Both the position numbers and the translations under genes were made by a program. A DNA stretch of 64,000 nt, taken from the NCBI RefSeq assembly GCF_000269805.1, contig NZ_JH711482.1, forward strand, positions 224,304-288,303, read 5' to 3'. Positions 35,208 to 47,882 of the stretch are shown here, in pieces; the stretch's first letter is position 1, and each line of letters starts with the position of its first letter. Source of the stretch: Actinomyces massiliensis 4401292. Lineage in GTDB: Bacteria > Actinomycetota > Actinomycetes > Actinomycetales > Actinomycetaceae. A model generated the notes under the pieces. It made no database searches. It saw only the letters and a program-made list of their open reading frames with translations, and was not told the DNA's origin.

Positions 35208-37286
35208 ATGAGCCGGATGAGCCGTGGGGGAAGACCCGCCCAAGGCGCGTTACTGGCTGCACCGGCGCCGTCTGAGCATGGTGTGGACGGCAATGGTGTT
35301 GCCGCGCCCGTGGCCAGAGTGCTGCTCGATTCTCCCTTGCCGCATCTGGACCGCCTTTTCGACTACCTCGTCCCACCGGATCTTGATGCCTCGGCCGCCG
35401 TGGGCACGAGCGTGATCGTCCGCTTCGGTGGGCAGGATATGCGCGGATGGGTCTGGGAGCGCGGCGCGACGACGACCCACGCCGGTCGACTGACCCCGAT
35501 TCGCCGGGTCGTCTCGGACCTGCCGGTGCTCACCGGTGCCACGAAGGCGCTGATCGAGGCGGTCGCGACGAGAAACGCCGGGGTGCGTTCGGACATCATC
35601 CGCCTTGCGGTACCGCCGCGTCATGCGTCTACCGAGCATTCTGAGCGTGGTCGTGGCGCACCGTCGCCGTCTCAGTGGCAGGCGCCGTCCGGAGAGGGAT
35701 GGGACGCATATGGCGGAGCCGGATTCGTGGATGCGCTCGCCGACGGCGGCGCGCCACGTGCCGTGTGGACTGCTCTCCCAGGACGGGCCGGCCTGGTACG
35801 CCGGTGGACTGCGCTGCTCGGCGATGCCATCAGGGCCGCCCTGGCGTCGGGCCGAGGCGCTCTCGTCATAGTCGCGACTGCGGCACAGGCCGAGGCCGTG
35901 GCGACGGCGCTGAAGGAGGAGCTGCTCCCCGCGCTTGACGAACCGATTGTCGTGCTGACCGCAGAGGGGGGCCCTGCTCGTCGCTACCGAGCCTTCCTGC
36001 GTGTGCTGCTCGGAACCGCGCGCATTGTGGTGGGTACACGCGCTGCCGCCTTCGCCCCGGTGCGTGGCCTGGGCCTGGCGGTCATCTGGGATGACGGCGA
36101 CAACCGCCTCGATGAGCGTCATGCTCCCTACACGCACGCTCGCACTGTTCTGGCGCTGCGCTCCGGCCTGGAAGGGGCGGGTTTGCTGGTGGCCGGCTAC
36201 GCCCGCAGCATCGAGGCCCAGAGCTTCGTGGAGCAGGGGTGGGCTGAGGAGCTCAGTGCTCCTCGGTCATTGCGGCGTGCCGCCGTTGCGCGGGTGCACG
36301 CCCCCAATGCGACTCGATTGGAAGCCGAGGGCTCCTCCGGAATCGCCCGAATTCCGTCACTTGCGCACCGAGCGGTGCGTGATGCCCTGGCCGATGGGCC
36401 CGTTCTGGTTCAGGTCTCACGCTCCGGCTATGCCCCGGTGGTGGCGTGCCGGCGATGCGGACAGGCCGCTCGCTGCCCCCATTGCGGGGGCCCGCTGGCC
36501 ATGGAGACGGCCGGGGTCACCACCTGCCGGTGGTGCGCGCGCGGACTGGCGGGTTGGCTCTGTCCCGCATGCGGTGGTGATCAGGTGCGTATGCGCGGCT
36601 CGGGCAGTGCGCGCACCGGCGAGGAACTGGGCCGTGCCTTTCCGGGCACGCCGGTGGCGATCTCCGGTGCGCGCGAGTCGCACGGCGTCATTGAATCCGT
36701 GGACGCCTCGCCCCGCCTGGTAGTCGCCACACCCGGTGCCGAGCCGGTCGCCGACGGCGGGTACTGCGCGGTTCTGCTCCTTGATGGCGCCCTTCTGTCA
36801 GCCCGCCCTGAACTCGGGGCGGGCGCGGAGGCGCTGCGACGATGGACCAACGCGGTGGTCTTGGCACGTGCAGATGCGCGGGTCATTCTTCTGGGCGGTC
36901 CGGATCCGTCAGCCGCGCAGGCGTTAGTGCGGTGGGATCATGCCGGTTACGCTCGTGAGGATCTGCTCGAGCGCGTTGACCTGCACCTCCCCCCAGCCTG
37001 GCGCACGGCGCGGTTGGACGGATCATGGGATGGCGTGGAGGCACTGCTTGCTCAGGCGCAGTCGGAGAATTTCGAGACCTTGGGCCCTGCACCGACGCCT
37101 GTTGCTGGTACAGCGCAGCAGGACCGGTCCGCCCCGGGCGGTGGCTCCACCGCACGGGCTTTGATCCGGGTGCCTGCCGACCGCGGGCGGGAGCTGGCGA
37201 TCATGCTGCGGGTGCGCCAGCGCGAGCGCTCGGCGCATCGGGAGGAGACGGTCCGCGTTGAGCTCGATCCGACCGTGCTGTGGTGA
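35208..37286 (+). CDS. priA: Primosomal protein N' (PriA), ATPase-degenerate actinobacterial type
   Basis: A 692-residue PriA. The N-terminal 3'-DNA-binding domain (VLLDSPLPHLDRLFDYLVP, GTSVIVRFGGQDMRGWVWE) and the zinc-binding insert (CRRCGQAARCPHCGGPLAM...CRWCARGLAGWLCPACGG, eight cysteines) are intact. The helicase motor is degenerate: no G-x-x-G-x-G-K-T Walker A is present (the equivalent region reads LPGRAGLVRR) and the DEEH-type motif is WDDGDN. This is the known actinobacterial pattern of a helicase-dead PriA acting as a DNA-binding primosome assembly factor. ATG 35208 is preferred to TTG 35193. It ends convergent with the island. Confidence 0.9.
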   Translation: MSRMSRGGRPAQGALLAAPAPSEHGVDGNGVAAPVARVLLDSPLPHLDRLFDYLVPPDLDASAAVGTSVIVRFGGQDMRGWVWERGATTTHAGRLTPIRRVVSDLPVLTGATKALIEAVATRNAGVRSDIIRLAVPPRHASTEHSERGRGAPSPSQWQAPSGEGWDAYGGAGFVDALADGGAPRAVWTALPGRAGLVRRWTALLGDAIRAALASGRGALVIVATAAQAEAVATALKEELLPALDEPIVVLTAEGGPARRYRAFLRVLLGTARIVVGTRAAAFAPVRGLGLAVIWDDGDNRLDERHAPYTHARTVLALRSGLEGAGLLVAGYARSIEAQSFVEQGWAEELSAPRSLRRAAVARVHAPNATRLEAEGSSGIARIPSLAHRAVRDALADGPVLVQVSRSGYAPVVACRRCGQAARCPHCGGPLAMETAGVTTCRWCARGLAGWLCPACGGDQVRMRGSGSARTGEELGRAFPGTPVAISGARESHGVIESVDASPRLVVATPGAEPVADGGYCAVLLLDGALLSARPELGAGAEALRRWTNAVVLARADARVILLGGPDPSAAQALVRWDHAGYAREDLLERVDLHLPPAWRTARLDGSWDGVEALLAQAQSENFETLGPAPTPVAGTAQQDRSAPGGGSTARALIRVPADRGRELAIMLRVRQRERSAHREETVRVELDPTVLW

Positions 37287-37304
37287 GACGGCGGGGAATG
37301 TGAT

Positions 37305-37336
37305 GGAGCCTGCCTGACAGGCCGGATGACGGCTCC
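37305..37336. terminator. Branched hairpin between priA and the island's tetR
   Basis: ggagcc (37305-37310) pairs with ggctcc (37331-37336), enclosing a second stem gcct-gac-aggc (37312-37322). It lies between convergent genes and could terminate both. Confidence 0.5.
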
Positions 37337-37377
37337 GCCTAAGATCTCACGGATATGTCGAAGACCCTGAATCTTTG

Positions 37378-38064
37378 TCAATCTCTGTCATCGGGTGGGC
37401 CATCACCCTCAGGACTGTTCTCGTCCTGATCGGGGTCCTGATCGGCCTGCGCCCAGAATGCAGTGATCTTTCCAAGAAGATCAGCAGCAGTGGCGTGCAC
37501 GTCACGACCCTCGCTCAAAGCGGTCACCGCGGCCCCGTCGACGACTGCGATCACCAGGTCGGGGTCGACGACAGCCCCCAATCGTTCCAGCAGACGACCG
37601 ACGGCGGCGTTGAGGCGCTGACGACCCTGGTGATAGGCCTGCTCAACGGGCGCGACGGCGCCCGCGGAGATGAGTTGGATATAGTGCCCGAGATACGGGC
37701 CCTCCGGCGGGAGCGTTGCCTGAAGCACCAGATCCAGTCGTCCGGATAGAGGAGGGATCTGCTCCAGGGCCTCCACTTTGTCCGCCACGTGCTCCGCCCG
37801 CGACGCCCAGATGGCGATATTGATCAGGCCGGCCTGATAAAGCAGGTCGTCCAGGCCCTTGAAGTAGTAGGTCGTCGCTGACAATGAGCAGCCGGCGCGC
37901 CTGGCAACGGCGCGATGACTCACCTCGGCCGGCCCCTCCTCGCGAATGATCGCAGCGGCCGCTTCGATGATCGTCTGTCGTCGTCCCTCTCCGCGCGAAG
38001 TCGGGCGTACGCCGCTCCGAGCCTGGCGAGACGGTTGAAAGGCGGCAGACAAGGGATCAGCCAT
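37378..38064 (-). CDS. TetR-family regulator of the guanidino-compound island
   Basis: A 228-residue TetR regulator. The helix-turn-helix is at residues ~30-80: RRQTIIEAAAAIIREEGPAEVSHRAVARRAGCSLSATTYYFKG, with S-A-T-T-Y-Y-F as recognition helix, of the kind that controls transporters. The C-terminal domain is helical and unassigned; the tail is acidic/proline-rich. The ATG at 38064 lies 8 bases after a TACCCT -10 box. It is the last gene of the minus-strand island, 74 bases beyond the MFS gene, and is the only regulator in it. It is therefore the best candidate for sensing creatinine, creatine or a related compound. That assignment is inference. Confidence 0.82.
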   Translation of the reverse strand: MADPLSAAFQPSRQARSGVRPTSRGEGRRQTIIEAAAAIIREEGPAEVSHRAVARRAGCSLSATTYYFKGLDDLLYQAGLINIAIWASRAEHVADKVEALEQIPPLSGRLDLVLQATLPPEGPYLGHYIQLISAGAVAPVEQAYHQGRQRLNAAVGRLLERLGAVVDPDLVIAVVDGAAVTALSEGRDVHATAADLLGKITAFWAQADQDPDQDENSPEGDGPPDDRD

Positions 38065-38072
38065 GTCTTCGT

Positions 38073-38078
38073 AGGGTA
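38073..38078 (-). promoter_or_regulatory. -10 box TACCCT of the island tetR, leaderless
   Basis: Minus-strand TACCCT ends 8 bases before the ATG at 38064, no Shine-Dalgarno between. The box is the same as that before the TetR gene at 936. Confidence 0.4.
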
Positions 38079-38138
38079 GCAAAGTGCGGGACGCCGTGCG
38101 TCGCGCAGTCGTCCGGCCAGGACGGGACGCCTTATGCC

Positions 38139-39512
38139 TCAGGGCGTCTCAGAATGATCGAGCTCAGTCAGCTCCGAGTTGCGGATGCCCCGCGACATGA
38201 GGATCGCCACCATGGCGATCAATGCCACCACGGTGAGGTAGACGGCTGGAGCCAGTGACGAGCCGGTTGTTTTAATGAGCCATGTCACAATGACGGGCGT
38301 TGTCCCGCCTAGGAGCGCATTGGCTCCGTTGAAGGAGAGAGCGAACCCGGAGTAGCGGACGTTGGTCGGGAAGGACTCGGCCAGGAATGTGGCCAGGGTG
38401 CCGTCATTGGCGGTCAGAACGATCGCGAAGATGATCTGGCACAGGATCACCACTGAGAGCATTCCAGTCGCTTTGGTCATTGCGATGAACAGCGGGATGG
38501 ACAGCACGATGAAGGCGATGCATGCGGCAATGAGCATCCGGCGCCTTCCGAAAGAATCGGAGAGGTGGCCCATGGCGAAGATCGAGACGATATAGACCAC
38601 GAGCATGATGGAGGTCGCCAGGGTGGCAGTCTCCTCCTTGAAGTGAAGCTCTTCCTTGACGTAGGTGGGCATGTAGCTGAGGAGCATGTAGAAGGCCACG
38701 GCGTTGAGGCAGGAGACGCCGAAGGTAATGAGCGTCTCGCGCCAGTGGTAGCGGAATAGCAGGATAAGCGGTTCGATCCAGCTCGTTGCTCTGGGATCCT
38801 GGGGCATTTCCGCGCGCATCGCCTGGTAGGCGGGAGAGTCTTCCAAATGGACTCGGATGTAGCGGCCGATCAGTCCCAACGGCCCGGCCAGGAGGAACGG
38901 GATGCGCCAGCCCCACTGGCTCATTGCGTTGGATTCCTCGCCGCCCAGAACGAAGAGCATGCCCGAGACCATGAGCGACCCAGCAAGGAGACCGCAGGCC
39001 GTGGAGGCCGGGACGAGGCAGGTATAGATGCCTCTCCGCGCGGGAGGTGCGTATTCAGCCAGGAAGGTGCCGGCGCCGGCGTACTCGCCGGAGGCCGAGA
39101 AGCCCTGGATCATGCGCAGAATAAGTAAACCGATAGCGCTCCACATCCCAATCTGGGCGTAGGGCGGAAGAAAGCCGATGAAACAAGTCGATCCCGACAT
39201 GATCAGGATAGACCATGACAGTGCCCATCGGCGCCCAAGACGGTCTCCCAATAGGCCCCAGACCACGGCGCCGATGGGCCGCAGAATGAAGGACATGGCG
39301 AATACCAGGAAGGAATATAGAAGCTGAGCGTATCTATCGGATTCAGGAAAGAATACGCTGCCGATCACACCTGCAAGATAACCGTAGGAAGCATAATCGA
39401 ACCACTCGATGAAATTGCCGATGAAACTCGCCGTGGCAGCACGCCTCAGTGCCTGTGTCCGCTCAGGATCCTTATGATGCTCGGTTGTGCTTCCGTAATG
39501 GACGGTGTTCAT
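38139..39512 (-). CDS. MFS transporter of the metabolite:H+ symporter (MHS) family
   Basis: A 457-residue MFS protein with 12 transmembrane segments. MHS-family marks are GNFIEWFDYASYGYLAGVIG at the first helix, GLLGDRLGRRWALSWSI between helices 2 and 3, and the long GFSASGEYAGAGTFLAEYAPPARRGIYT motif; FPTNVRYSGFALSFNGANALLGG lies in helix 10-11. The family (ProP, KgtP, ShiA, CitH) takes up small polar metabolites, osmolytes and zwitterions with protons. Creatine/creatinine are such molecules, so uptake of the creatininase substrate is plausible. ATG 39512 follows GAAGG. A ~400-base gap with a decayed fragment separates it from the creatininase gene. Confidence 0.88.
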   Translation of the reverse strand: MNTVHYGSTTEHHKDPERTQALRRAATASFIGNFIEWFDYASYGYLAGVIGSVFFPESDRYAQLLYSFLVFAMSFILRPIGAVVWGLLGDRLGRRWALSWSILIMSGSTCFIGFLPPYAQIGMWSAIGLLILRMIQGFSASGEYAGAGTFLAEYAPPARRGIYTCLVPASTACGLLAGSLMVSGMLFVLGGEESNAMSQWGWRIPFLLAGPLGLIGRYIRVHLEDSPAYQAMRAEMPQDPRATSWIEPLILLFRYHWRETLITFGVSCLNAVAFYMLLSYMPTYVKEELHFKEETATLATSIMLVVYIVSIFAMGHLSDSFGRRRMLIAACIAFIVLSIPLFIAMTKATGMLSVVILCQIIFAIVLTANDGTLATFLAESFPTNVRYSGFALSFNGANALLGGTTPVIVTWLIKTTGSSLAPAVYLTVVALIAMVAILMSRGIRNSELTELDHSETP

Positions 39513-39659
39513 TGCCTTCAACTCCGGACGTGAGTGTTGAGGTTCTGCGAGTGCTTCTGGTTTATGCAGTCGATGGTGCTGCCTGCCTGCGGATGCAGAA
39601 CGGATCAACCGCAGGCAGGCGGATCGGTCTTCAATCGGGCGGTGAGGGTCCTTGGTTGC

Positions 39660-39896
39660 GAGTTCCAGGATAGTTGTTGCCAGCCCGCCCCGCCTCCGAT
39701 CACGAGCATCCCTCCGAGGATCCCAAGCTGAGCGGCTCGTGCTACAGTCGGGTGCGTTGGAACAGCCCGACCATTCGAGTTGCGACCACGATGATGACAA
39801 AACCGATCATGGTGACGGACATGCGCCCGAAGACCAGGAAAGCTCCGATAAACCAGCTTGCCGGCTTCGCCAAGCCCGTTGGTGGAATGAGGCATC
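39660..39896 (-). pseudogene. Frameshifted remnant of a small membrane-transport protein
   Basis: The 399-base gap between the MFS and creatininase genes (39513-39911) has no intact gene but shows two adjoining hydrophobic segments in different minus-strand frames. One frame reads GLAKPASWFIGAFLVFGRM and then SVTMIGFVIIVVATRMVGLF before a stop at 39744-39742. The other continues AAQLGILGGMLVIGGGAGW. Joined, they resemble the last two helices of a DMT/EamA- or YdcZ-like permease. There is no start codon with a Shine-Dalgarno sequence. Identity is weak; the fragment may instead be chance hydrophobicity in GC-rich DNA. Confidence 0.3.
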
Positions 39897-39911
39897 CTTA
39901 TCGGAGCCTCG

Positions 39912-40679
39912 CTACATCGTGAATCTGCCTCGAATGGCATCAGTTATCCCGGACACGATGGAATCGGCGAGTATAGCCCCTTTCTCCGCGCTTGCAGCCT
40001 TTGCGGATGAGAGGCAGCCCGACTCTGGAGTGAGGGTCGGGTCCACTGGCAGCAGGTCATAAGGGGGCAGGGCGGCGGCCGGCAGGTCCATGACGCGGTC
40101 CATGTGCACCAGGTCTGGGAAGTACTCGAGCATCAGTGAGGTTTCCATGACTCCGCCGTGCTCGACATCCCATCCTGGAAAGCCATCGGGGTAGAGACCG
40201 GAGATGACTTCCTCGGTCACGAAGTCCCAGTAGGACAGGAGCATGACGTCGGGGATGCTCTGACCCCTCAAGTCGCGCAGAGCCAGATCCACGCCCTCGT
40301 AAATGAATTGGTAGTTCTCATAGTGGCCGTTGATGAACGCGATTCGCTTGAGCCCATGCCGTGCGAACTCCCGCACGAAGGTGCGGCAGATGCCGATGAC
40401 GGTGGCGGCGTCGAAGCCGAAAGAACCGATGATGTGATTGCCTCCGCCGGAGCGCTGCTGCGACTTGTATCCGGTAGTGATGGTCGGCCCCACCAGAGCA
40501 TTAATATTCTCGGCGACGAGTTCGGCCATCTTCGTTGACAGCATCATGTCCACGCCCAGGGGCATGTGCGGGCCGTGCTGCTCAATGGCGCCCACCGGAA
40601 TGAGCATGACCGGATCGTCCTGTATAATCTTGCGGTAGGTGAAGGCGTCCAGGCGGGTGATATTGCGCTCATGAGTCAT
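39912..40679 (-). CDS. crnA: Creatininase (creatinine amidohydrolase)
   Basis: A 255-residue enzyme that from memory aligns nearly end to end with Pseudomonas creatininase, not merely with the broad family. Metal ligands are visible in IPVGAIEQHGPHMPLGVDMML (Glu, His, Asp), INGHYEN (His, Glu) and WDVEHGGVMETSLML (the E-H-G-G-x-x-E-T-S motif). The substrate-specific blocks GYKSQQRSGGGNH, SYWDFV, YPDGFPGWD and PPYDLLPVDP are also kept. It interconverts creatinine and creatine. It lies in an EamA-crnA-MFS group; the usual partners creatinase and sarcosine oxidase are absent from the window. Function as creatininase is likely; related cyclic amides cannot be excluded. Confidence 0.88.
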   Translation of the reverse strand: MTHERNITRLDAFTYRKIIQDDPVMLIPVGAIEQHGPHMPLGVDMMLSTKMAELVAENINALVGPTITTGYKSQQRSGGGNHIIGSFGFDAATVIGICRTFVREFARHGLKRIAFINGHYENYQFIYEGVDLALRDLRGQSIPDVMLLSYWDFVTEEVISGLYPDGFPGWDVEHGGVMETSLMLEYFPDLVHMDRVMDLPAAALPPYDLLPVDPTLTPESGCLSSAKAASAEKGAILADSIVSGITDAIRGRFTM

Positions 40680-40724
40680 TGGTGGTGTCCTTCGTTATTG
40701 TGTTTCTGCATGCTGCCCGTCTGA

Positions 40725-41783
40725 TTATGATGTAACTATCAGATTCTCTGCCTTCTCCTTTTCCGGATCTGGTTCTCCTTCCTTGGGCGTGTGAACCGGT
40801 TTCTCCCTGGTTGAGAAGTACACCTGAGAAACACCGCCGCTGATGATGAGTACGCCACCCAGCATCTGCATGCCGGAGAGGGGCTCGTGGAAGAAGGCGA
40901 GACCCAACAGTGAGGCCATGATGGTCTCCTGATAAGAGATAGTCGCCAGTTCCCCAGCAAGGAGGATCTTGCTCGCCAGAGTGAGGAAGTAGAAGGCGCC
41001 GAATCCGGTCACCAGGGCCGCGATGATAAGTACCGTCCAGGTTCGGGCGTCCATGCTGAAAAGGTCCCAATCGGCGGTCACCGTGTTTCCGGATTTATCG
41101 ACCTTCGTAGTCGGCACTCCGTCAACCTTCTCGCGGACCACGTAGGTGAGCTTCGACCAACGGGTGGCGACCATGATCCCGATGGTCATCACGGCGAAGA
41201 GGAAGTTGTACCAGGCCCGTACGTTGGAGTCGCAGTCCGTACGGTAGCGTGAAGCGAAGAGATAGAGGCCGTAGGCCACGCCCGAGGCCAGTCCGATCAT
41301 GTTTCCGAAGGCGTACTTGGGATCGAGATCGAGCTTGAACCCCTCATCCGAGATGATCTGAACGATCAGCAGAGTTCCTACCACGACTGCTGCCAGGGAG
41401 CCGATCATGGCCGGCTTGAACGGCTCTTTGAGGAATATTGTGGCCAGGATGGTCGAGTACACCGGGCCGGTGTAGATGAGGAAGGATGCGTTGGCGAGGG
41501 TGGTGTACTGGGTGGAGATGACATAGAGGGCCGAGAGAAGCCCCAAGAATAGTCCTGAGAAGAAGATGGAGGGAGTGAACTTAGTGGATTTTACTTTCGC
41601 AAACCCTCCGACGAAGAGGAAGAAAAGTGTCATGCCGATCAAGCCGCTGAAGCTGCGGAAGAAGGAGATGAAATCGCCGGGAGCATCGATATAGCGCGCA
41701 AAAGCCCCAATCCCGCCCATGAGGCTCGACGATAGAAACATAAGCCCAAATCCTTTGAGCTTCACGCGACCTGATGTATCCAA
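40725..41783 (-). CDS. EamA/DMT-superfamily permease
   Basis: A 352-residue protein with ten transmembrane segments in two EamA repeats. It starts FGLMFLSSSLMGGIGAFARYID, and the second repeat contains ALVTGFGAFYFLTLASKILLAGELATISYQETIMASLLGLAFFHEPLSGMQMLGGVLIISGG, with the conserved P-x-x-x-x-x-x-G end pattern. Unusual is a ~35-residue polar insert before the second repeat (EKVDGVPTTKVDKSGNTVTADWD). The family exports amino acids and metabolites. TTG start at 41783 preceded by AAAGGAG. The creatininase start lies 45 bases downstream, so the two are co-transcribed. Likely role is export or exchange of a product of the island; unproven. Confidence 0.82.
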   Translation of the reverse strand: MDTSGRVKLKGFGLMFLSSSLMGGIGAFARYIDAPGDFISFFRSFSGLIGMTLFFLFVGGFAKVKSTKFTPSIFFSGLFLGLLSALYVISTQYTTLANASFLIYTGPVYSTILATIFLKEPFKPAMIGSLAAVVVGTLLIVQIISDEGFKLDLDPKYAFGNMIGLASGVAYGLYLFASRYRTDCDSNVRAWYNFLFAVMTIGIMVATRWSKLTYVVREKVDGVPTTKVDKSGNTVTADWDLFSMDARTWTVLIIAALVTGFGAFYFLTLASKILLAGELATISYQETIMASLLGLAFFHEPLSGMQMLGGVLIISGGVSQVYFSTREKPVHTPKEGEPDPEKEKAENLIVTS

Positions 41784-41822
41784 CTTCCGCTCCTTTGCGG
41801 TAGGTTCATTTTCTATGTGGGG

Positions 41823-41849
41823 TGATTCTCATGCGGATCACGAGAATCA
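41823..41849. promoter_or_regulatory. Inverted repeat upstream of the EamA gene, candidate operator
   Basis: tgattctc (41823-41830) and gagaatca (41842-41849) are perfect 8-base half-sites with an 11-base spacer, 40 bases upstream of the EamA start. Suitable for the island TetR repressor; binding is inference. Confidence 0.4.
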
Positions 41850-41997
41850 TGCATGACAGATGTGATAGGCGCGCTCGCACTGAAAGCGAGGCGGCGGCTG
41901 TGCGCAGAGAATCAAAAAATGTGAGGGGATGCCGTGCGTCATTCCGGCACCATCCGAGTCGCGTTCGACGCGAAAAAATTTAGTGAGATTGAAACTA

Positions 41998-42038
41998 GGT
42001 GGGGGCGGTGGCCCGGTTATGGAGCCGCCGCCCCCACC
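41998..42038 (-). terminator. Strong rho-independent-type stem after the amidinotransferase gene
   Basis: ggtgggggcggtggc (41998-42012) pairs with gccgccgcccccacc (42024-42038): 15 bp with one G-U pair and an 11-base loop, 20 bases beyond the stop on the minus strand. The sequence beyond is T-rich further on (ATTTTTT at ~41975). It separates arcB-arcC-amidinotransferase from the EamA-crnA-MFS unit. Confidence 0.7.
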
Positions 42039-42058
42039 AGCTCTCTGAGAATTAGACC

Positions 42059-43186
42059 TCAGACAAGTGTCGGGTCGTCAACCTGGTTGGGGAAGTAATC
42101 CTCACAGGTGCCCTCGCGGAAGACATCTGCGGTGGCGCAGTGCAGGCCTCCGCCGAAGGCATAGGCGTCGCGGAAGGGCACAGGAATGACGTTCATTCCC
42201 AGCTTGTCCATCTGCTCCATCTGGTGGACCTCACTGGCCTCGACGCATACGGTCTTGTGGTCGATCACCAGACAGTTCATGGACAGCCACACCGAGGAGT
42301 AGCACAGCGGCGGCGGTGTGGTGTGGGCCGGAGGCGCAGCGTCAACGATCTGCCAGTCGTTGGCCTCGAAGATCTTGCGCTGCTCCTCGGGCAGGCGGCG
42401 GTGCGGGTTGTTGATGATCAGACCCGGACGCAGCGGCACGAAGGTCGCATCGATGTGGATCGGATAGGGGTCGCCCGGGAAGTTCACGGCGTGGACGCGG
42501 AACTCGGGGTAGTACCGCTTGAACCACTCCATGGCCTTCCGGTTGGTGGTCAGACCGTGCTGGATGAACAGGTCCTTGCCGACGCGCATGACGTCGGCGG
42601 CATCCCACATGGGCTCAACCTCGGTGGTCACGAAGTCCTTGGCCGCAGTCCGCTCCAGGCGCTCCTCAATGGAGATTCTCTCGTCGTAGTAGTTGTGCTT
42701 GTACGACTTGTCGGTCAGGCGCGGGCGCGGGGCCTGCGTCCACTTGAACTCCGGGTCCTCTTCGAAGTACTCGTTCATGAGCGGCCAGTAGGCGAGGTAC
42801 TCGAAGTAGCGGCAGCGGAAGGAGTTTGCCGATGACATGATCTCGTCACCGATGGTCAGCAGGATGTCTCGCGGAGGCATCTGGGTGAATCCGGACTCCG
42901 TGCGGAAGTCAGGGGTCTGGATCGCCTGGTTCCACTGCAGCGGTGTGGGCCGGTCGACCTTGACGCCCAGACCCTCAAGAATCTTGACGTAGTTGTCGAG
43001 CTGCTCGTTGGCCGCCTCTACGGTGGCGGTGGGGCGTGGGCCCCACATGCCGCGCATTTCGGAGTCGATCGGCACCTTCTCCGAGGTGGCGGGCTCCTCG
43101 GGCGGGATCACCGAGAAGTCTGCGCGTCCTACGATGACGTGCTTGAGCGGGTCGAAGTCGTTCCATGAGTTGACGATCTTCGTCAT
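42059..43186 (-). CDS. Arginine:glycine amidinotransferase-like enzyme (guanidine-modifying superfamily)
   Basis: A 375-residue protein that aligns over its whole length with human AGAT/StrB-type amidinotransferases. The start is SWNDFDPLKHVIVGRA. The catalytic triad is visible: Asp in PMWDAADVMRVGKDLF, His in YPIHIDATFVPL, Cys near the C-terminus in GGGLHCATADVFREG; the second Asp of HIDAT, the Arg of NPHRRL and the Ser of VWLSMN are also kept. Two acceptor-pocket positions differ from human AGAT (Asn-Pro-Met-His becomes Tyr-Pro-Ile-His), so the acceptor or even the reaction may differ. AGAT moves an amidino group between arginine/ornithine and an amine such as glycine, reversibly. Placement downstream of arcB-arcC occupies the place of arginine deiminase, a structural relative. 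ATG 43186; a long alternative frame running into arcC is not protein-like. Confidence 0.85.
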   Translation of the reverse strand: MTKIVNSWNDFDPLKHVIVGRADFSVIPPEEPATSEKVPIDSEMRGMWGPRPTATVEAANEQLDNYVKILEGLGVKVDRPTPLQWNQAIQTPDFRTESGFTQMPPRDILLTIGDEIMSSANSFRCRYFEYLAYWPLMNEYFEEDPEFKWTQAPRPRLTDKSYKHNYYDERISIEERLERTAAKDFVTTEVEPMWDAADVMRVGKDLFIQHGLTTNRKAMEWFKRYYPEFRVHAVNFPGDPYPIHIDATFVPLRPGLIINNPHRRLPEEQRKIFEANDWQIVDAAPPAHTTPPPLCYSSVWLSMNCLVIDHKTVCVEASEVHQMEQMDKLGMNVIPVPFRDAYAFGGGLHCATADVFREGTCEDYFPNQVDDPTLV

Positions 43187-43326
43187 GTGTGTGTCACTCC
43201 CTTGTGCGTTGTGAGTAGCCCGGTATGGGCGATGGATGTGCTGATGAAGCAGTGGAGGCGGCATGACTGCGCCGCCATGACATGGTGTGGTTGAACCACC
43301 TCCTAGAACGGGGCCGGCGCAGCCGT

Positions 43327-44298
43327 TCAGGCGCGCTTGAGTCTGTCGTCCACCGGTTCGGGTGATGATTGGGTGTTGTGAGGGTAGGTGCCGGTGGGGG
43401 TGATGATGGTTCCAGTGGTGCCGTTGAGGATGTCGGCGGCGTGGTGGAGGGGGCCGATGGCGGCGGTGTCGCCGGTGAGCTCGACGAAGCGGCAGGCGGC
43501 TTCGACTTTGGGGCCCATGGATCCGGAGGGTAGGTTGAGTTTGCGGAGAGTGGTGGGGGTGGCGCGGGAGATGTGTTGTTGTTGGGGGGTGTTGTAGTCG
43601 GTGTAGACGCCGTTGGTATCGGTCAGGATGAGCAGGGCGTCGGCTTCGAGGTGTTCGGCGAGGACGGCTGCGGTGAGGTCTTTGTCGATGACTGCTTCGA
43701 TGCCTTGGAGTTTGCCGGTGTGGTTGCGGATGACGGGGATGCCGCCGCCGCCGGCGCAGATGACGATGGCTCCGGTCTGGAGCAGGGTGCGGATGAGTCG
43801 GGTTTCGATGACGCGTTGGGGGGTGGGTGAGCCGATGACGCGGCGGTAGTAGTCGCCGTCGGGTTTGACGGTCCAGCCGTATTGGGCGGCTAGGGTCTGG
43901 GCCTGGTCCTTGGAGTAGACCTCGCCGATGAATTTGGTGGGGTCGGTCAGGGCGGGGTCGCCGGCCAGGACCAGGGTTTGGTTGATCATGGAGGCGACGT
44001 GGCGTCCGGGGAGCGCGTTCTGCATGGCTTGGAGGAGCCAATAGCCGATCATGCCCTGGGTTTGAGCACCGAGGGTGTCGAAGGGGTAGGGGGTGGTCAG
44101 GCGTTCGTCGTTGGCCGATTGCAGGGCGAGGACTCCGATTTGGGGCCCGTTGCCGTGGGTGATGACCAGTTCGTGGTGCTCGGCCAGGGCGGCGAGCTGG
44201 ATCGCGGCGGAGTGGACGTTGGCGATCTGGGTGGAGGCGTTGGGGGTTTGGTTGCGTTCGAGGAGGGCGTTGCCTCCGAGGGCGACGACGATTCTCAT
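43327..44298 (-). CDS. arcC: Carbamate kinase
   Basis: A 323-residue carbamate kinase. [19 protein letters not shown] opens the amino acid kinase fold; [52 protein letters not shown] and [17 protein letters not shown] are family signatures. It makes ATP and carbamate (CO2 + NH3) from carbamoyl phosphate in fermentative arginine or agmatine use. The start codon overlaps the arcB stop (ATGA), so both are made together. The coding strand is unusually rich in A and C (long ACC/CAC/CAA runs) compared with flanking genes, suggesting a different origin from the chromosomal backbone. Confidence 0.95.
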
Positions 44299-45332
44299 GG
44301 CTGGTTCGCCTCCTTGGTTTCGTTGGTGGTGGGGGTGGCGAGGGTGGCGACCATGACGGCTTTGATGGTGTGCATGCGGTTTTCGGCTTGGTCGAAGGCG
44401 GCGTTGAGGGGGGATTCGAAGACGTCGTCGGTGACTTCCAGGCCGTCCATGCCGGTTTTGGTGTAGATGTCTTGGCCTACGGTGGTGTTGCGGTCGTGGA
44501 AGGCGGGTAGGCAGTGCAGGAATTTCACGTTCGGGTTGCCGGTGGCGTGGACCAGGGCTTGGTTGATCTGGTAGGGGCGCAGCAGGTTGATGCGTTCGTC
44601 CCAGACTTCTTTGGGTTCGCCCATGGAGACCCAGACATCGGTGTACAGGAAATCGACGCCGGCCACGCCGGTGGTGGGGTCGTCGGTGATGGTGATGCGC
44701 GCTCCGCTGGTGGCGGCCAGGTCGTGGGCGGCGTCGATGATCTCGGTCTCGGGTTGTAGTTGGGTGGGGGCGACCATGCGCACGTCCATGCCCATCAGCG
44801 CCGCTGAGATCAGCAGTGAGTTGGCGACGTTGTTGCGGGCGTCTCCCAGGTAGGCGAAGGCGATCTGCTGGATCGGTTTGCCCGAGTGCTCGATCATGGT
44901 GAGTTGATCGGCCAGCATCTGGGTGGGGTGCCATTGATCGGTCAGGCCGTTCCATACTGGGACTCCGGACAGCTCGGCCAGGGTCTCGACATGTGCTTGT
45001 TCTTTGCCGCGGAACTCGATCCCGTCGTAGAACCGGCCCAGGACCCGGGCGGTGTCGGCTACTGATTCCTTATGGCCCATCTGCGAGCCTGACGGGTCCA
45101 GATACGTCACCCGTGCGCCTTGATCGTAGGCCGCGACTTCGAACGAGCACCGCGTGCGCGTGGAGGTCTTCTCAAAGATCAACGCGATGTTCTTGCCTAC
45201 CAGCCGCTGCTCCTCACGACCAGCCTTCTTCGCCGCTTTCAACTCCGCCGCCAACTCAAGCAACGAACCCCACTCCACAGCAGTGAAATCCAACTCCTTA
45301 AGAAAATGACGCCCAAACAACAAAGAACCCAT
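44295..45332 (-). CDS. arcB: Ornithine carbamoyltransferase (catabolic type by context)
   Basis: A 345-residue OTC. The carbamoyl-phosphate loop is in [21 protein letters not shown], followed by [11 protein letters not shown], the conserved [19 protein letters not shown] and, specific for ornithine rather than putrescine, [17 protein letters not shown] (the S-M-G loop), then [13 protein letters not shown] with the catalytic cysteine. Fusion in one transcript with arcC argues for the catabolic direction (citrulline + Pi to ornithine + carbamoyl phosphate). ATG 45332 follows AGGAG at 5 bases. The anabolic arg genes are not in this window. Arginine deiminase, which would supply citrulline, is also absent here. 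Confidence 0.92.
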
Positions 45333-45458
45333 AACAACTCCTAAATAGTGGATCTGGTGCGGTGGATGACAGAGACGAATAGATGAGGTTGACGGTCACA
45401 TGGTGAACATAGTGATCGCTTCTTGAAGAATGCGGTGATCTCTGAGGCACATGACCCT

Positions 45459-45638
45459 TCAGCCGCCGCCGAAGAGAATGCTCTCGTTGCGCTCGGGCGC
45501 CTCCCGGGTGAGCTTCGAGTGGAAGTCGTTGCTGAACAAAGATCGATCTTCGCCCTGATGTGCAAGTCGAAGAGCGTCGGCGCCAGCGCGGCGCAGGGCG
45601 GCCTGCTGGAGTTCCTCGATCGTGAAATCGATGGACAT
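45459..45638 (-). CDS. Small hypothetical protein with C-terminal Gly-Gly-Gly, upstream of arcB
   Basis: A 59-residue protein I do not recognise: MSIDFTIEELQQAALRRAGADALRL, then a charged middle, and a tail ending ERNESILFGGG. The start at 45638 lies 8 bases after GGGAG; an ATG two codons earlier is also possible. The N-terminal half looks like one or two amphipathic helices, the C-terminal half is polar. It is on the same strand as arcB, 126 bases before it, with a perfect palindrome just upstream. It could be an island accessory protein, a regulatory small protein, a peptide precursor, or a chance frame. A good Shine-Dalgarno and context favour a real gene. Confidence 0.45.
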   Translation of the reverse strand: MSIDFTIEELQQAALRRAGADALRLAHQGEDRSLFSNDFHSKLTREAPERNESILFGGG

Positions 45639-45656
45639 TGCCATGGCTCCCTTTCT

Positions 45657-45672
45657 GGCACAGCTCTGTGCC
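45657..45672. promoter_or_regulatory. Palindrome ggcacag-ct-ctgtgcc before the small gene
   Basis: Perfect 7-base half-sites with a 2-base spacer, directly upstream of the Shine-Dalgarno sequence of the 59-residue protein gene. It may be an operator for the small gene and the arcB operon. Confidence 0.4.
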
Positions 45673-46404
45673 GTGAAATATGGAGGACAAGAGCGGTGCT
45701 GCGGATCACATCGCGCCTGACTGGTACGAGCGTACTACTTGAAGACAGTGCGGGGAAGCGGCTCTTGCGAACCCGGACAGCTTTGTTGTGATCCTCAGCC
45801 CCTGCGTGCAGTGAGGTGGTGAGGCGATCTTTGCTTTCTATTGGAATAATGCTGTTCCGGTGTGGTCGCATGAGGGCGGTGGGTAGTGGGATTATGTTCT
45901 ATGGTTGTGCGATCTGACGACGCTGGCCCTGCTGGAGATGGTTGAGGTGGTACTGAGCGCTGGTGAGATCGAGCGGCTGTCGGCCGGGCCCCTCAACTAG
46001 ATCTCCTAGGTCCTGCCGTATACCCGCAATGCACATCACGCGTTCGACATGGACGCCTGGAAGCTTGTTCATGGGCTCTCTTGTGTTTCTGCAAGTTATG
46101 TCTGTTGTGCGAGGGGCGGTCTTCAAGAGTCGTAGGGCGGGATACGCGGTTGGGCGCCCCCGGGGGTGCCTCGCAGTGAAGGCTGGAATTGGTGAGGGTT
46201 CTGGCCGTCAGCGGGGGCTGCTGCCTTCAAGGCCGGCTTCGTCCCTGATGATGAGGCCCTGACCCTCGTGATCGGTCTCGAACCCGCGTTGGCGGTGCAA
46301 GCCCTCGTCCATGACAAGGCCCAGACACCCTCGAGTGCCCCGCCCCAGCCCGGCCCCCCGGATGGCCCTGCTCTGGTGTCGGGACGGCGCATTGAGGGGG
46401 CCAG

Positions 46405-46551
46405 GTGTCCAAAACGGAGGAGATCAGCCCGGGCACCATGCAGCGCGACACCGAAAGCACACCGGAAACACAACGAAAACACCGGGTCATCGCACGGTTT
46501 CTTGAAGATACCCCAGGCCACCGAGACTTTAATCCCCTCCGTTTTGGACAC
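46405..46551. mobile_element. MITE-like element with 20-bp terminal inverted repeats
   Basis: gtgtccaaaacggaggagat (46405-46424) is repeated inverted at 46532-46551 with a single mismatch, bounding a 147-bp non-coding segment. Inside are tandem units of the type acaccgaaagc/acaccggaaac. No transposase is encoded and no clear target-site duplication is seen. Terminal repeats of this length on a short non-coding body suggest a non-autonomous transposon relic; a large regulatory stem is the alternative. Confidence 0.5.
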
Positions 46552-46640
46552 ATCCGGCCTGACAACCCCATCAACCGATCCCACCAGCACGCCGCCCCAC
46601 CGAAACAACCGACACCTCACACGTAGAGGCCCACGAATAA

Positions 46641-46681
46641 GCCTCCTGATGTACGCCTGCTGATGCGGGCGGTAGGGAGGC
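46641..46681. terminator. Long interrupted hairpin, possible terminator
   Basis: gcctcc (46641-46646) pairs with ggaggc (46676-46681) and, inside, cgcctgc pairs with gcgggcg around a tgat loop. Strong structure, no U-tract, no clear gene ending before it. Confidence 0.35.
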
Positions 46682-46881
46682 GGCAATCCGATTGCACCAA
46701 TGCGCTTTTGACGCGCCGCCGGTCCCAGCTCCGTGTATTTGTGTATTTATCTTGGATGACCGGTCGCCGAGTGCGGTACCGGCGGCCCTCGATCGTGTAC
46801 ATGCTTGTCGCCCTTGACGGACCTCGCTTTCCTCACCGGAACTCGCATCGAGAGAAGCTGAGCGAAGCCGAGAGAAGTATT

Positions 46882-46902
46882 CCGCAGCCGCGAGGGCTGC
46901 GG
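46882..46902. terminator. Hairpin upstream of fmt
   Basis: ccgcagcc (46882-46889) and ggctgcgg (46895-46902) form a perfect 8-bp stem with a 5-base loop, ending ~20 bases before the fmt -10 box. It could insulate fmt from upstream transcription. Confidence 0.4.
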
Positions 46903-46922
46903 CCGTGCCCGTAGTCTGCCCG

Positions 46923-46928
46923 TAGACT
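46923..46928 (+). promoter_or_regulatory. -10 box TAGACT of fmt, leaderless
   Basis: TAGACT ends exactly 6 bases before the fmt ATG at 46935, with no Shine-Dalgarno sequence. This fits a leaderless fmt-rsmB mRNA. No good -35 box. Confidence 0.4.
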
Positions 46929-46934
46929 GACGTC

Positions 46935-47882
46935 ATGCGCGTTCTCTTCGCCGGCACTCCCGAGGTGGCCCTGCCGACTCTTCAGGCCCTCATGAATCAT
47001 CCCGAGCACGAGCTCGTCGGCATCCTCACCCGCGCCGACGCCCGCAAGGGGCGCGGCCGCGCTCTCCACGCCTCGCCTGTGGCGGCCCTCGCTCGAGAGG
47101 CCGGTCTCGATGTGCATACGCCCGCCACCCTTAGAGATGAAAGCGCTCGTATCTGGGTGCGGACCTTGGATGCCGATGTCGCCGTCGTCGTCGCCTATGG
47201 GCGTCTCATTCCTGCCGCACTTCTAGATATTCCCAAGCACGGCTGGCTCAATCTCCATTTCTCGCTCCTGCCCGCATGGCGCGGTGCCGCCCCTGTTCAG
47301 CGCGCTCTTATCGCCGGCGATACCACCACGGGTGCCAGCGTTTTCCGCCTTGAGGAGGGAATGGACACCGGCCCGGTCTATGCGCGGCTGACCGAGGCGA
47401 TCCGTCCCACTGATACGTCGGGCGAGCTTCTGACACGTCTTGCTGAAGCCGGTGCGCCTCTGGTTCTCGACGTTCTACGCACTTTGAATCGCGGCACGGC
47501 GGCTCCCGAGCCGCAAGCTGAAGAGGGCGTTACGGTAGCGCCCATGCTCACGTCCGCCGATGGTGAGATCCGCTGGTCTGATCCCGCGCCCGCCATCGAC
47601 TGCCGTGTGCGCGGGGTGACTCCCGCCCCGGGCGCCCACACCTTCTACGACGGCGCCCGTCTGCGGCTCGGACCGGTCGCAGTTGTTCCCGAGGTCGCTG
47701 ACCTTCTGCCGGGACGACTCAGGGTGAACAAGCATGACGTGCTCGTCGGTACTGGTGCCTGCGCTGTGCGACTGGGGCAGGTCGCTCCTGCGGGAAAGAA
47801 ATGGATGGCCGCAGAGGCCTGGGCACGCGGCGCCCGCCTACCGGTCGGGGCTGTCCTGGGCGTGCAGGGGAGGGAACTGTGA
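46935..47882 (+). CDS. fmt: Methionyl-tRNA formyltransferase
   Basis: A 315-residue Fmt. MRVLFAGTPEVALPTLQAL starts the formyltransferase domain; VVAYGRLIPAALLDIPKHGWLNLHFSLLPAWRGAAPVQRAL carries the catalytic Asn-His region and the S-L-L-P-x-x-R-G-A-A-P motif; GASVFRLEEGMDTGPV follows. The OB-like C-terminal domain (from about residue 205) binds tRNA. It formylates Met-tRNAfMet. Overlaps rsmB by four bases (GTGA). Confidence 0.96.
   Translation: MRVLFAGTPEVALPTLQALMNHPEHELVGILTRADARKGRGRALHASPVAALAREAGLDVHTPATLRDESARIWVRTLDADVAVVVAYGRLIPAALLDIPKHGWLNLHFSLLPAWRGAAPVQRALIAGDTTTGASVFRLEEGMDTGPVYARLTEAIRPTDTSGELLTRLAEAGAPLVLDVLRTLNRGTAAPEPQAEEGVTVAPMLTSADGEIRWSDPAPAIDCRVRGVTPAPGAHTFYDGARLRLGPVAVVPEVADLLPGRLRVNKHDVLVGTGACAVRLGQVAPAGKKWMAAEAWARGARLPVGAVLGVQGREL

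Follow-up and report, generated by a model that had tools for sequence, protein, structure and literature searches.

The question raised by this locus is what use a bacterium could make of creatinine when its creatininase gene is set among genes of the arginine deiminase (ADI) pathway. Classically, creatinine is broken down by creatininase, creatinase and sarcosine oxidase. The locus lies in Actinomyces massiliensis 4401292, within the stretch of 64,000 nucleotides analysed here (the window; C2:224304-288303 of a 3.37 Mb genome whose completeness is given as 99.98%). One minus-strand island carries genes for ornithine carbamoyltransferase (OTC, ArcB), carbamate kinase (ArcC), an AGAT-family amidinotransferase (here AGT), an EamA permease, creatininase, a carrier of the major facilitator superfamily (MFS) and a TetR-family regulator. 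All seven had been named in a first-pass annotation of the window, and all are present at or near the positions given there. The island probably constitutes an amidino-transfer entry to the ADI pathway in which AGT works toward arginine and creatine is the donor where creatininase is present, a reading given a probability of roughly 0.62.

In the proposed pathway creatininase would hydrate creatinine (creatinine + H2O -> creatine) and AGT would run an AGAT-type reaction toward arginine (creatine + ornithine <-> sarcosine + arginine). ArcA, encoded at C1, would then form citrulline and NH3 from arginine and H2O, OTC would convert citrulline and Pi to ornithine and carbamoyl phosphate, and ArcC would use carbamoyl phosphate and ADP to give ATP, CO2 and NH3. 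Overall, creatinine would become sarcosine, CO2 and two ammonia with one ATP, and the last three steps would pull the reversible transamidination toward arginine. Ornithine would be a catalytic carrier, so that an arginine/ornithine exchanger would be unnecessary. The MFS carrier (BCCT- or NCS1-type carriers in relatives) and the EamA permeases would take creatine or creatinine in and let sarcosine out. For the enzyme families concerned these reactions are established; the exception is the use of creatine by AGT, which is suggested by the company the gene keeps; the direction of AGT, the substrates of the carriers and induction are likewise what we infer.

Conserved linkage of AGT with creatininase and arc genes

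Relatives of AGT were gathered by a contig scan that gave 143 stretches, the best 80 of which were kept and represent 79 distinct loci. Neighbours (OTC, ArcC, arcA, MFS, TetR, EamA, creatininase and arcD) were counted within 6 kb of AGT, some loci being short. The counts were taken from tblastn because gene maps based on codon usage miss genes, e.g. ArcC in L051, L053 and L063. A subset of 59 loci has 4.5 kb or more on either side of AGT. A separate set of 59 genomes comprises this genome and 58 relatives, 37 being of the genus and 22 others of the order. AGT is present in 30 of the 59, all within the genus (30/37), and in 0/22 of the others.

Creatininase exceeds the model cutoff in 11 of the 59 genomes, this one included, and in all 11 it lies within 1.1-2.5 kb of AGT. 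None of the 29 AGT-free genomes of the set has a creatininase above the cutoff; two of them, G044 and G052, have matches below it (126 and 93 bits). Fourteen of the 79 loci hold creatininase near AGT: six titled Actinomyces (L033, L034, L044, L046, L048, L060; L044 being an Actinomycetaceae bin), two of Georgenia (L051, L052), and one each from a Micrococcales bin (L053), a Dermatophilus bin (L055), Flaviflexus (L068), Buchananella (L073), Rubneribacter (L080) and Gordonibacter (L082). In exactly these 14 loci, and in none other of the 79, the best EamA match is a homologue 56-87% identical to the permease in the window. The pairing of this type, EamA1, with creatininase spans Actinomycetaceae, Georgenia, other actinomycetes and Eggerthellaceae, and EamA1 is a candidate creatinine/creatine carrier. 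A BCCT-type carrier lies within 6 kb in 7 of the 14 creatininase loci and an NCS1-type carrier in 2, with none in the other AGT loci; the example proteins of both types score under the model cutoffs. On a quick tree of AGT, in which 29 of 75 inner branches are weakly supported, the creatininase label (14 of 79 rows) changes seven times, so creatininase has probably joined or been lost repeatedly beside AGT.

Conservation in relatives, on which the first-pass annotation had staked its proposal, is evident: many genera keep arcA, OTC, ArcC, EamA and creatininase close to AGT. OTC is found in 41/79 loci, ArcC in 42/79, arcA in 36/79, an MFS homologue in 67/79 and a TetR homologue in 54/79. Within the 59 loci with long flanks the numbers are 33 for OTC, 31 each for ArcC and arcA, 52 for MFS, 45 for TetR and 6 for creatininase. 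The gene 5' of OTC in many loci encodes arginine deiminase (in L035, 529.7 bits against a cutoff of 414 for NF002381 and 492.2 against 489.1 for TIGR01078), and a common order in Actinomyces is arcA-arcB-arcC-AGT-EamA-MFS-TetR. The A. oris loci L040, L041 and L043 show arcA-OTC-ArcC-AGT-EamA-MFS. By our reading of the 59-genome set, 23 of the 30 genomes with AGT have an arcA at a distance of about 2.2-2.3 kb from it. The seven without arcA at that distance are this genome, G002, G020 and G029, together with G016, G028 and G035, in which AGT is near a contig end. Since every one of the 37 genomes of the genus has arcA, as do 11 of the 22 others, presence of the gene alone is no evidence; its position is.

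Further searches for arcA covered 41 genomes whose AGT locus showed none beside AGT or OTC in the maps, or was too short. A match was found in 39, over the cutoff in 21 of these. The gene lies 2.5 kb off in L077 and 8 kb off in L109, on the opposite strand, and in G094 consists only of 23-residue pieces at contig ends. The two of the 41 that gave no arcA match (L079, L102) are both metagenome bins. Six genomes of the genus Actinomyces that lack AGT (L148-L153) carry a lower-scoring type of arcA, at about 345-370 bits; in the stretches fetched there is no arcC match, OTC is found in three, and a contig end truncates L151. The gene glyA is found near arcA in five Actinomycetaceae loci (L039, L042, L045, L047, L065) and near AGT in L105, the L039 copy being a serine hydroxymethyltransferase (NF000586, 575.7 bits, cutoff 335). 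A neighbour of this kind would fit a product of glycine type, or may simply have been inherited.

In five loci from Eggerthellaceae and Deltaproteobacteria (L084, L096, L101, L105, L106), AGT itself is 82-83% identical to the window's protein. MetK of the same five genomes is 59-63% identical, and the adjoining OTC and ArcC, in loci that have them, 38-67%. In L096, for example, AGT is 83%, OTC 54% and ArcC 39% identical, and in L106 the values are 82, 66 and 39%. With similarity so much lower in the arc partners than in AGT, AGT adjoins diverged arc genes in distant lineages. Its high similarity across lineages could reflect either transfer between them or strong constraint.

An arcD homologue is found near AGT in only one of the 79 loci (L069), by a single ArcD query that other types of exchanger may escape. 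This rarity is as expected if ornithine is recycled. Among arcA loci away from AGT, arcD is near in 7/20, including 5/5 of those from AGT-bearing Actinomyces, which were hand-picked among second arcA copies. Every one of the seven L035 cluster genes has a family match, and no ArcD-type exchanger is among them; family scans of the window genes likewise gave no arginine/ornithine exchanger, ArcE-type exchangers not having been searched by homology. In a survey of 124 arc clusters, nearly all contain arcD or arcE (PMC5300872); as described there, the count required arcABC plus arcD and/or arcE, and clusters with neither would go unlisted. The island shares OTC and carbamate kinase with the ADI pathway arcABC(D/E), and arginine deiminase too, in the cluster in many relatives and elsewhere in the genome here. 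It differs in the rarity of ArcD near AGT and in that an amidinotransferase would replace arginine uptake as the entry, and the window cluster has only a remnant of arcA.

The island and its enzymes

Transcription on the minus strand would pass through the arcA remnant, OTC, ArcC, AGT, a hairpin, EamA, creatininase, MFS and TetR, in that order. The start codons of TetR, MFS, AGT and ArcC were chosen by us from the list of open reading frames. AGT (42059..43186, minus strand) has human AGAT as its best solved relative (1jdx, E 7.2e-80) and aligns with it over residues 5-365 of 375. Other solved relatives are SxtG (E 1.5e-61), HsvA (2.4e-57) and the inosamine-phosphate enzyme StrB (4.2e-47). No Pfam or NCBIfam family matches AGT at E 0.001, so that family models would miss the pathway. 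The closest AGT is that of A. israelii, at 98%. Across 93 distinct members that share at least 75% identity, C350, H244, D195, D107, D246, R263 and S298 are invariant in 93/93. Their human AGAT counterparts, mapped by eye on the 1jdx alignment, are C407, H303, D254, D170, D305, R322 and S354/S355, which we take to be catalytic or carboxylate-binding residues. AGT thus resembles human AGAT (1jdx/1jdw) in overall homology and catalytic residues and differs from it in pocket residues, in its catabolic gene context and in the direction proposed, which is reversed. An AlphaFold model built from 32 close homologues was too poor (pLDDT 51.5) and was not used.

Creatininase (creatinine amidohydrolase, EC 3.5.2.10; 39912..40679, minus strand) scores 326.7 bits on TIGR04448, about 92 bits over the equivalog cutoff of 235, and its best solved relative is 1j2t, a creatinine amidohydrolase (E 6.8e-86). 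The alignment to 1j2t shows that it keeps EQH, NGHYEN, YWDF and GWDxEHGG, presumably the active-site motifs of Pseudomonas creatininase, and it is predicted to hydrolyse creatinine. The earlier description of it as a true creatininase is borne out. Directly 5' lies EamA1 (40725..41783, minus strand, TTG start; PF00892, 72.4 bits), an EamA (DMT) permease of the kind that accompanies creatininase. The MFS gene (38139..39512, minus strand) is ProP-like and putatively of MHS type. It scores 361.5 bits on TIGR00883, below the cutoff of 443.45, and 337 on the ProP model (cutoff 544); it is proposed to import creatine or a similar zwitterion. A BCCT remnant was sought in the window and none was found. 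The TetR-family regulator (37378..38064, minus strand) is supported by PF00440 (27.7 bits, cutoff 24), its BetI-like NCBIfam matches being weak and below cutoff.

On the other side of AGT, ArcC (43327..44298, minus strand) scores 438.2 bits on NF009008 (cutoff 361) and about 354 on TIGR00746 (353.9-354.7, the lower value from a scan beginning at 44295, one codon short), just under the cutoff of 358.25. Its start overlaps the OTC stop (ATGA). OTC (44295..45332, minus strand) scores 416.7 bits on TIGR00658 (cutoff 280.85) and 267.4 on the putrescine carbamoyltransferase model, whose cutoff is 500.

Between AGT and EamA stands a strong hairpin (41992..42043, minus strand), the 81-nt stretch reaching -49.4 kcal/mol (z -6.9; none of 200 shuffles equally stable). 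It is possibly a transcript end or an attenuator. The terminator scan did not list this hairpin among its sites, promoter and terminator scans gave no more sites than in shuffles, and an Rfam scan of 36500-47000 gave no matches. The first-pass annotation had suspected two transcripts here and allowed that they might be unrelated neighbours. The hairpin fits two transcripts; co-occurrence in relatives speaks against their being unrelated.

Deiminase and classical partners in the genome

The 5' edge of the island, at 45644, coincides with the start codon (ATG) of an N-terminal arcA remnant of 61 codons (45459..45644, minus strand), found by tblastn with the L035 ArcA (E 7e-6). Its local score against that protein is 80, the highest of 500 shuffles being 44. 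Scores of 63 and 51 against the L057 and L051 ArcA were reached by 0/500 shuffles, and the score of 33 against the genome's own ArcA from C1 by 51/500. In many relatives arcA occupies the place of the remnant, directly 5' of OTC. A similar remnant 5' of OTC in A. israelii (L033) was considered and rejected, its matches of E 0.03-0.08 being unconvincing.

The genome's one arcA match is a full-length gene at C1:319418-320635, in agreement with the prediction that a deiminase would be encoded elsewhere. It scores 501.6 bits on NF002381 (cutoff 414) and 443.8 on TIGR01078, below the cutoff of 489.1. The genome has all three ADI pathway genes, arcA at C1 and OTC and ArcC in the window, and since the local arcA is a remnant, the C1 gene would supply the deiminase. 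An arginine-ornithine antiporter gene lies 5' of the C1 arcA (TIGR03810 585.2 bits, just below 591; TIGR00905 532.1, cutoff 409.05). On its 3' side is a copy of OTC (L116 10921-12023; G000 C1 about 320920-322022) whose DNA matches the window's at 96% over 1115 nt; the match extends through the first 22 codons of arcC and ends there. This copy is read as having moved from the window locus to C1. A second full-length ArcC-like gene at C1:609912 (TIGR00746 368.1 bits, cutoff 358.25) is 36% identical to the ArcC of the window.

The earlier statement that creatinase and sarcosine oxidase are absent also stands, neither being found in the genome by searches with Creatinase_N and DAO. There are no Creatinase_N proteins, the control being positive in 13/14 genomes, and the 13 DAO matches fall in 11 genes, none of which looks like a sarcosine oxidase. 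The NCBIfam matches of all 11 indicate other enzymes, glycerol-3-phosphate dehydrogenase in the case of the strongest DAO match. Among 20 further genomes with creatininase and AGT, 16 have no Creatinase_N protein and the other four hold nine matches. Eight of these look like Xaa-Pro peptidases or kin of ectoine hydrolase, as judged for L181 and L182 against PDB and for the other six against NCBIfam only, all below cutoffs; the ninth is weighed below. The proposed route would share with the classical one its first step, catalysed by a creatininase over the equivalog cutoff. The amidino group would pass to ornithine, not to urea, no O2 would be needed and one ATP would be gained.

Weighing of explanations and wider setting

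Several observations weigh against an amidino-transfer entry fed by creatine. In 65 of the 79 AGT loci there is no creatininase nearby, so creatinine is not the general substrate of such loci; in these 65 the substrate may be creatine imported as such or another guanidino compound. The arcA in the window is broken, the hairpin may split the transcript in two here, and no dedicated outlet for sarcosine was identified. Georgenia thermotolerans, which has creatininase and AGT, also has a true creatinase (L178:763-2016; 1chm, E 2e-169). As to the deiminase, arcA occurs throughout the 37 genomes of the genus whether or not AGT is present, the match in Cutibacterium namnetense is split into two pieces, and the best match in Desulfosarcina is weak, at 241 bits against a cutoff of 489. 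Arc genes are missing from the surroundings of AGT in most Eggerthellaceae loci, although arcA is elsewhere in nearly all that were searched. The pocket of AGT departs from that of human AGAT: N300, M302 and C410 are replaced by Y241, I243 and A353 in 93/93, and the position of Y164 holds M in 70/93 and F in 23/93. Good use of creatine or sarcosine is not known among characterised AGATs. The position of W408 is A, S or C in AGT members, and the combination of Y and I at the N300 and M302 positions occurs in none of nine remoter homologues (27-42% identity), several of which are gapped there. These differences indicate a distinct specificity and do not indicate which.

A different donor under the same logic would accommodate part of this. 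Guanidinoacetate or another guanidino compound would then feed arginine formation, with creatine a side substrate or leaving the cell. The many loci without creatininase suit such a donor, as would glyA if glycine were the product, and known AGATs act on guanidinoacetate and glycine (PMC9213308). Against it, every creatininase above the cutoff in the 59 genomes adjoins AGT, BCCT-type carriers accompany creatininase in seven loci, which suits creatine, and the Actinomycetaceae glyA may be a mere inherited neighbour. Another donor is unlikely overall, if worth keeping in view. It is quite improbable that AGT works in the usual direction, moving the amidino group from arginine onto an exported guanidino product while the arc genes handle surplus arginine. 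AGAT and the SxtG, HsvA and StrB homologues in PDB presumably act in biosynthesis, the last three, as we take it, in natural-product synthesis, and EamA proteins are, as we understand, often exporters. The window AGT shares their family and differs in its catabolic neighbours: a ring-opening creatininase and import-type carrier families are joined to AGT, and the mapped neighbourhoods hold no recurring biosynthetic partner, though many single-locus neighbours are unnamed.

The first-pass annotation had also allowed that AGT itself might hydrolyse the guanidine. A hydrolase or deiminase, replacing a lost ArcA or acting directly on creatine, would make sense of the arcA remnant, and ArcA and AGAT belong, we believe, to one superfamily. 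Full-length arcA within 6 kb of AGT in 36/79 loci and the AGAT catalytic residues kept in 93/93 make that alternative very improbable, and a replacement of ArcA in particular is rejected, many relatives having a full arcA near AGT and this genome having one at C1. Least credible is that OTC-ArcC-AGT and EamA-creatininase-MFS are neighbours without relation. OTC and ArcC are common genes and a strong hairpin separates AGT from EamA; set against this, the order recurs across genera and 11/11 creatininases above cutoff in the 59 genomes adjoin AGT. Since the arc genes and creatininase co-occur with AGT in relatives, a chance neighbourhood is ruled out.

Creatine-fed transfer to ornithine, feeding the ADI pathway, could have a wider meaning. 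At about even odds, these loci represent an undescribed O2-independent creatinine/creatine route in host-associated actinobacteria and some sulfate reducers. The new AGAT subfamily would be a creatine:ornithine amidinotransferase feeding the ADI pathway, with ornithine as carrier, sarcosine leaving the cell and EamA1 as the creatinine permease. Among the matches listed in open-licence PubMed Central, judged mostly by title or the start of the abstract and with preprints outside the scope, no creatine-fed amidinotransferase route into the ADI pathway was recognised. Creatinine serves as the standard marker of renal function, host fluids are rich in creatine, and Actinomyces, Mobiluncus, Gordonibacter, Adlercreutzia and Slackia, all named among the AGT loci, inhabit the mouth and gut. 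If the route exists, these genera would hold an ATP-yielding, ammonia-releasing pathway for creatine and creatinine. A review describes knowledge of which particular bacteria degrade these two compounds as elusive (PMC10215027). The route would also tie creatine to the metabolism of arginine and to the production of alkali in dental plaque, where another study assigns arginine deiminase system transcripts to A. naeslundii (PMC10986539).

Other genes and arrangements recur or stand out at AGT loci. In Desulfosarcina a 470-aa gene follows OTC-ArcC-AGT (L106:11165-12577); it gave no NCBIfam match at E 1e-20, and by eye its product resembles what we take to be cyclic 2,3-diphosphoglycerate synthetases. 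A family of 189-aa proteins recurs at AGT loci of Eggerthellaceae, encoded between EamA and MFS (L084:12565-13134 and 14 others); its L084 member has no NCBIfam match. Paired AGT genes occur in one cluster in L053, L060, L081, L093, L096 and L099, and in L053 and L060 one AGT stands beside creatininase and the other beside a different type of EamA.

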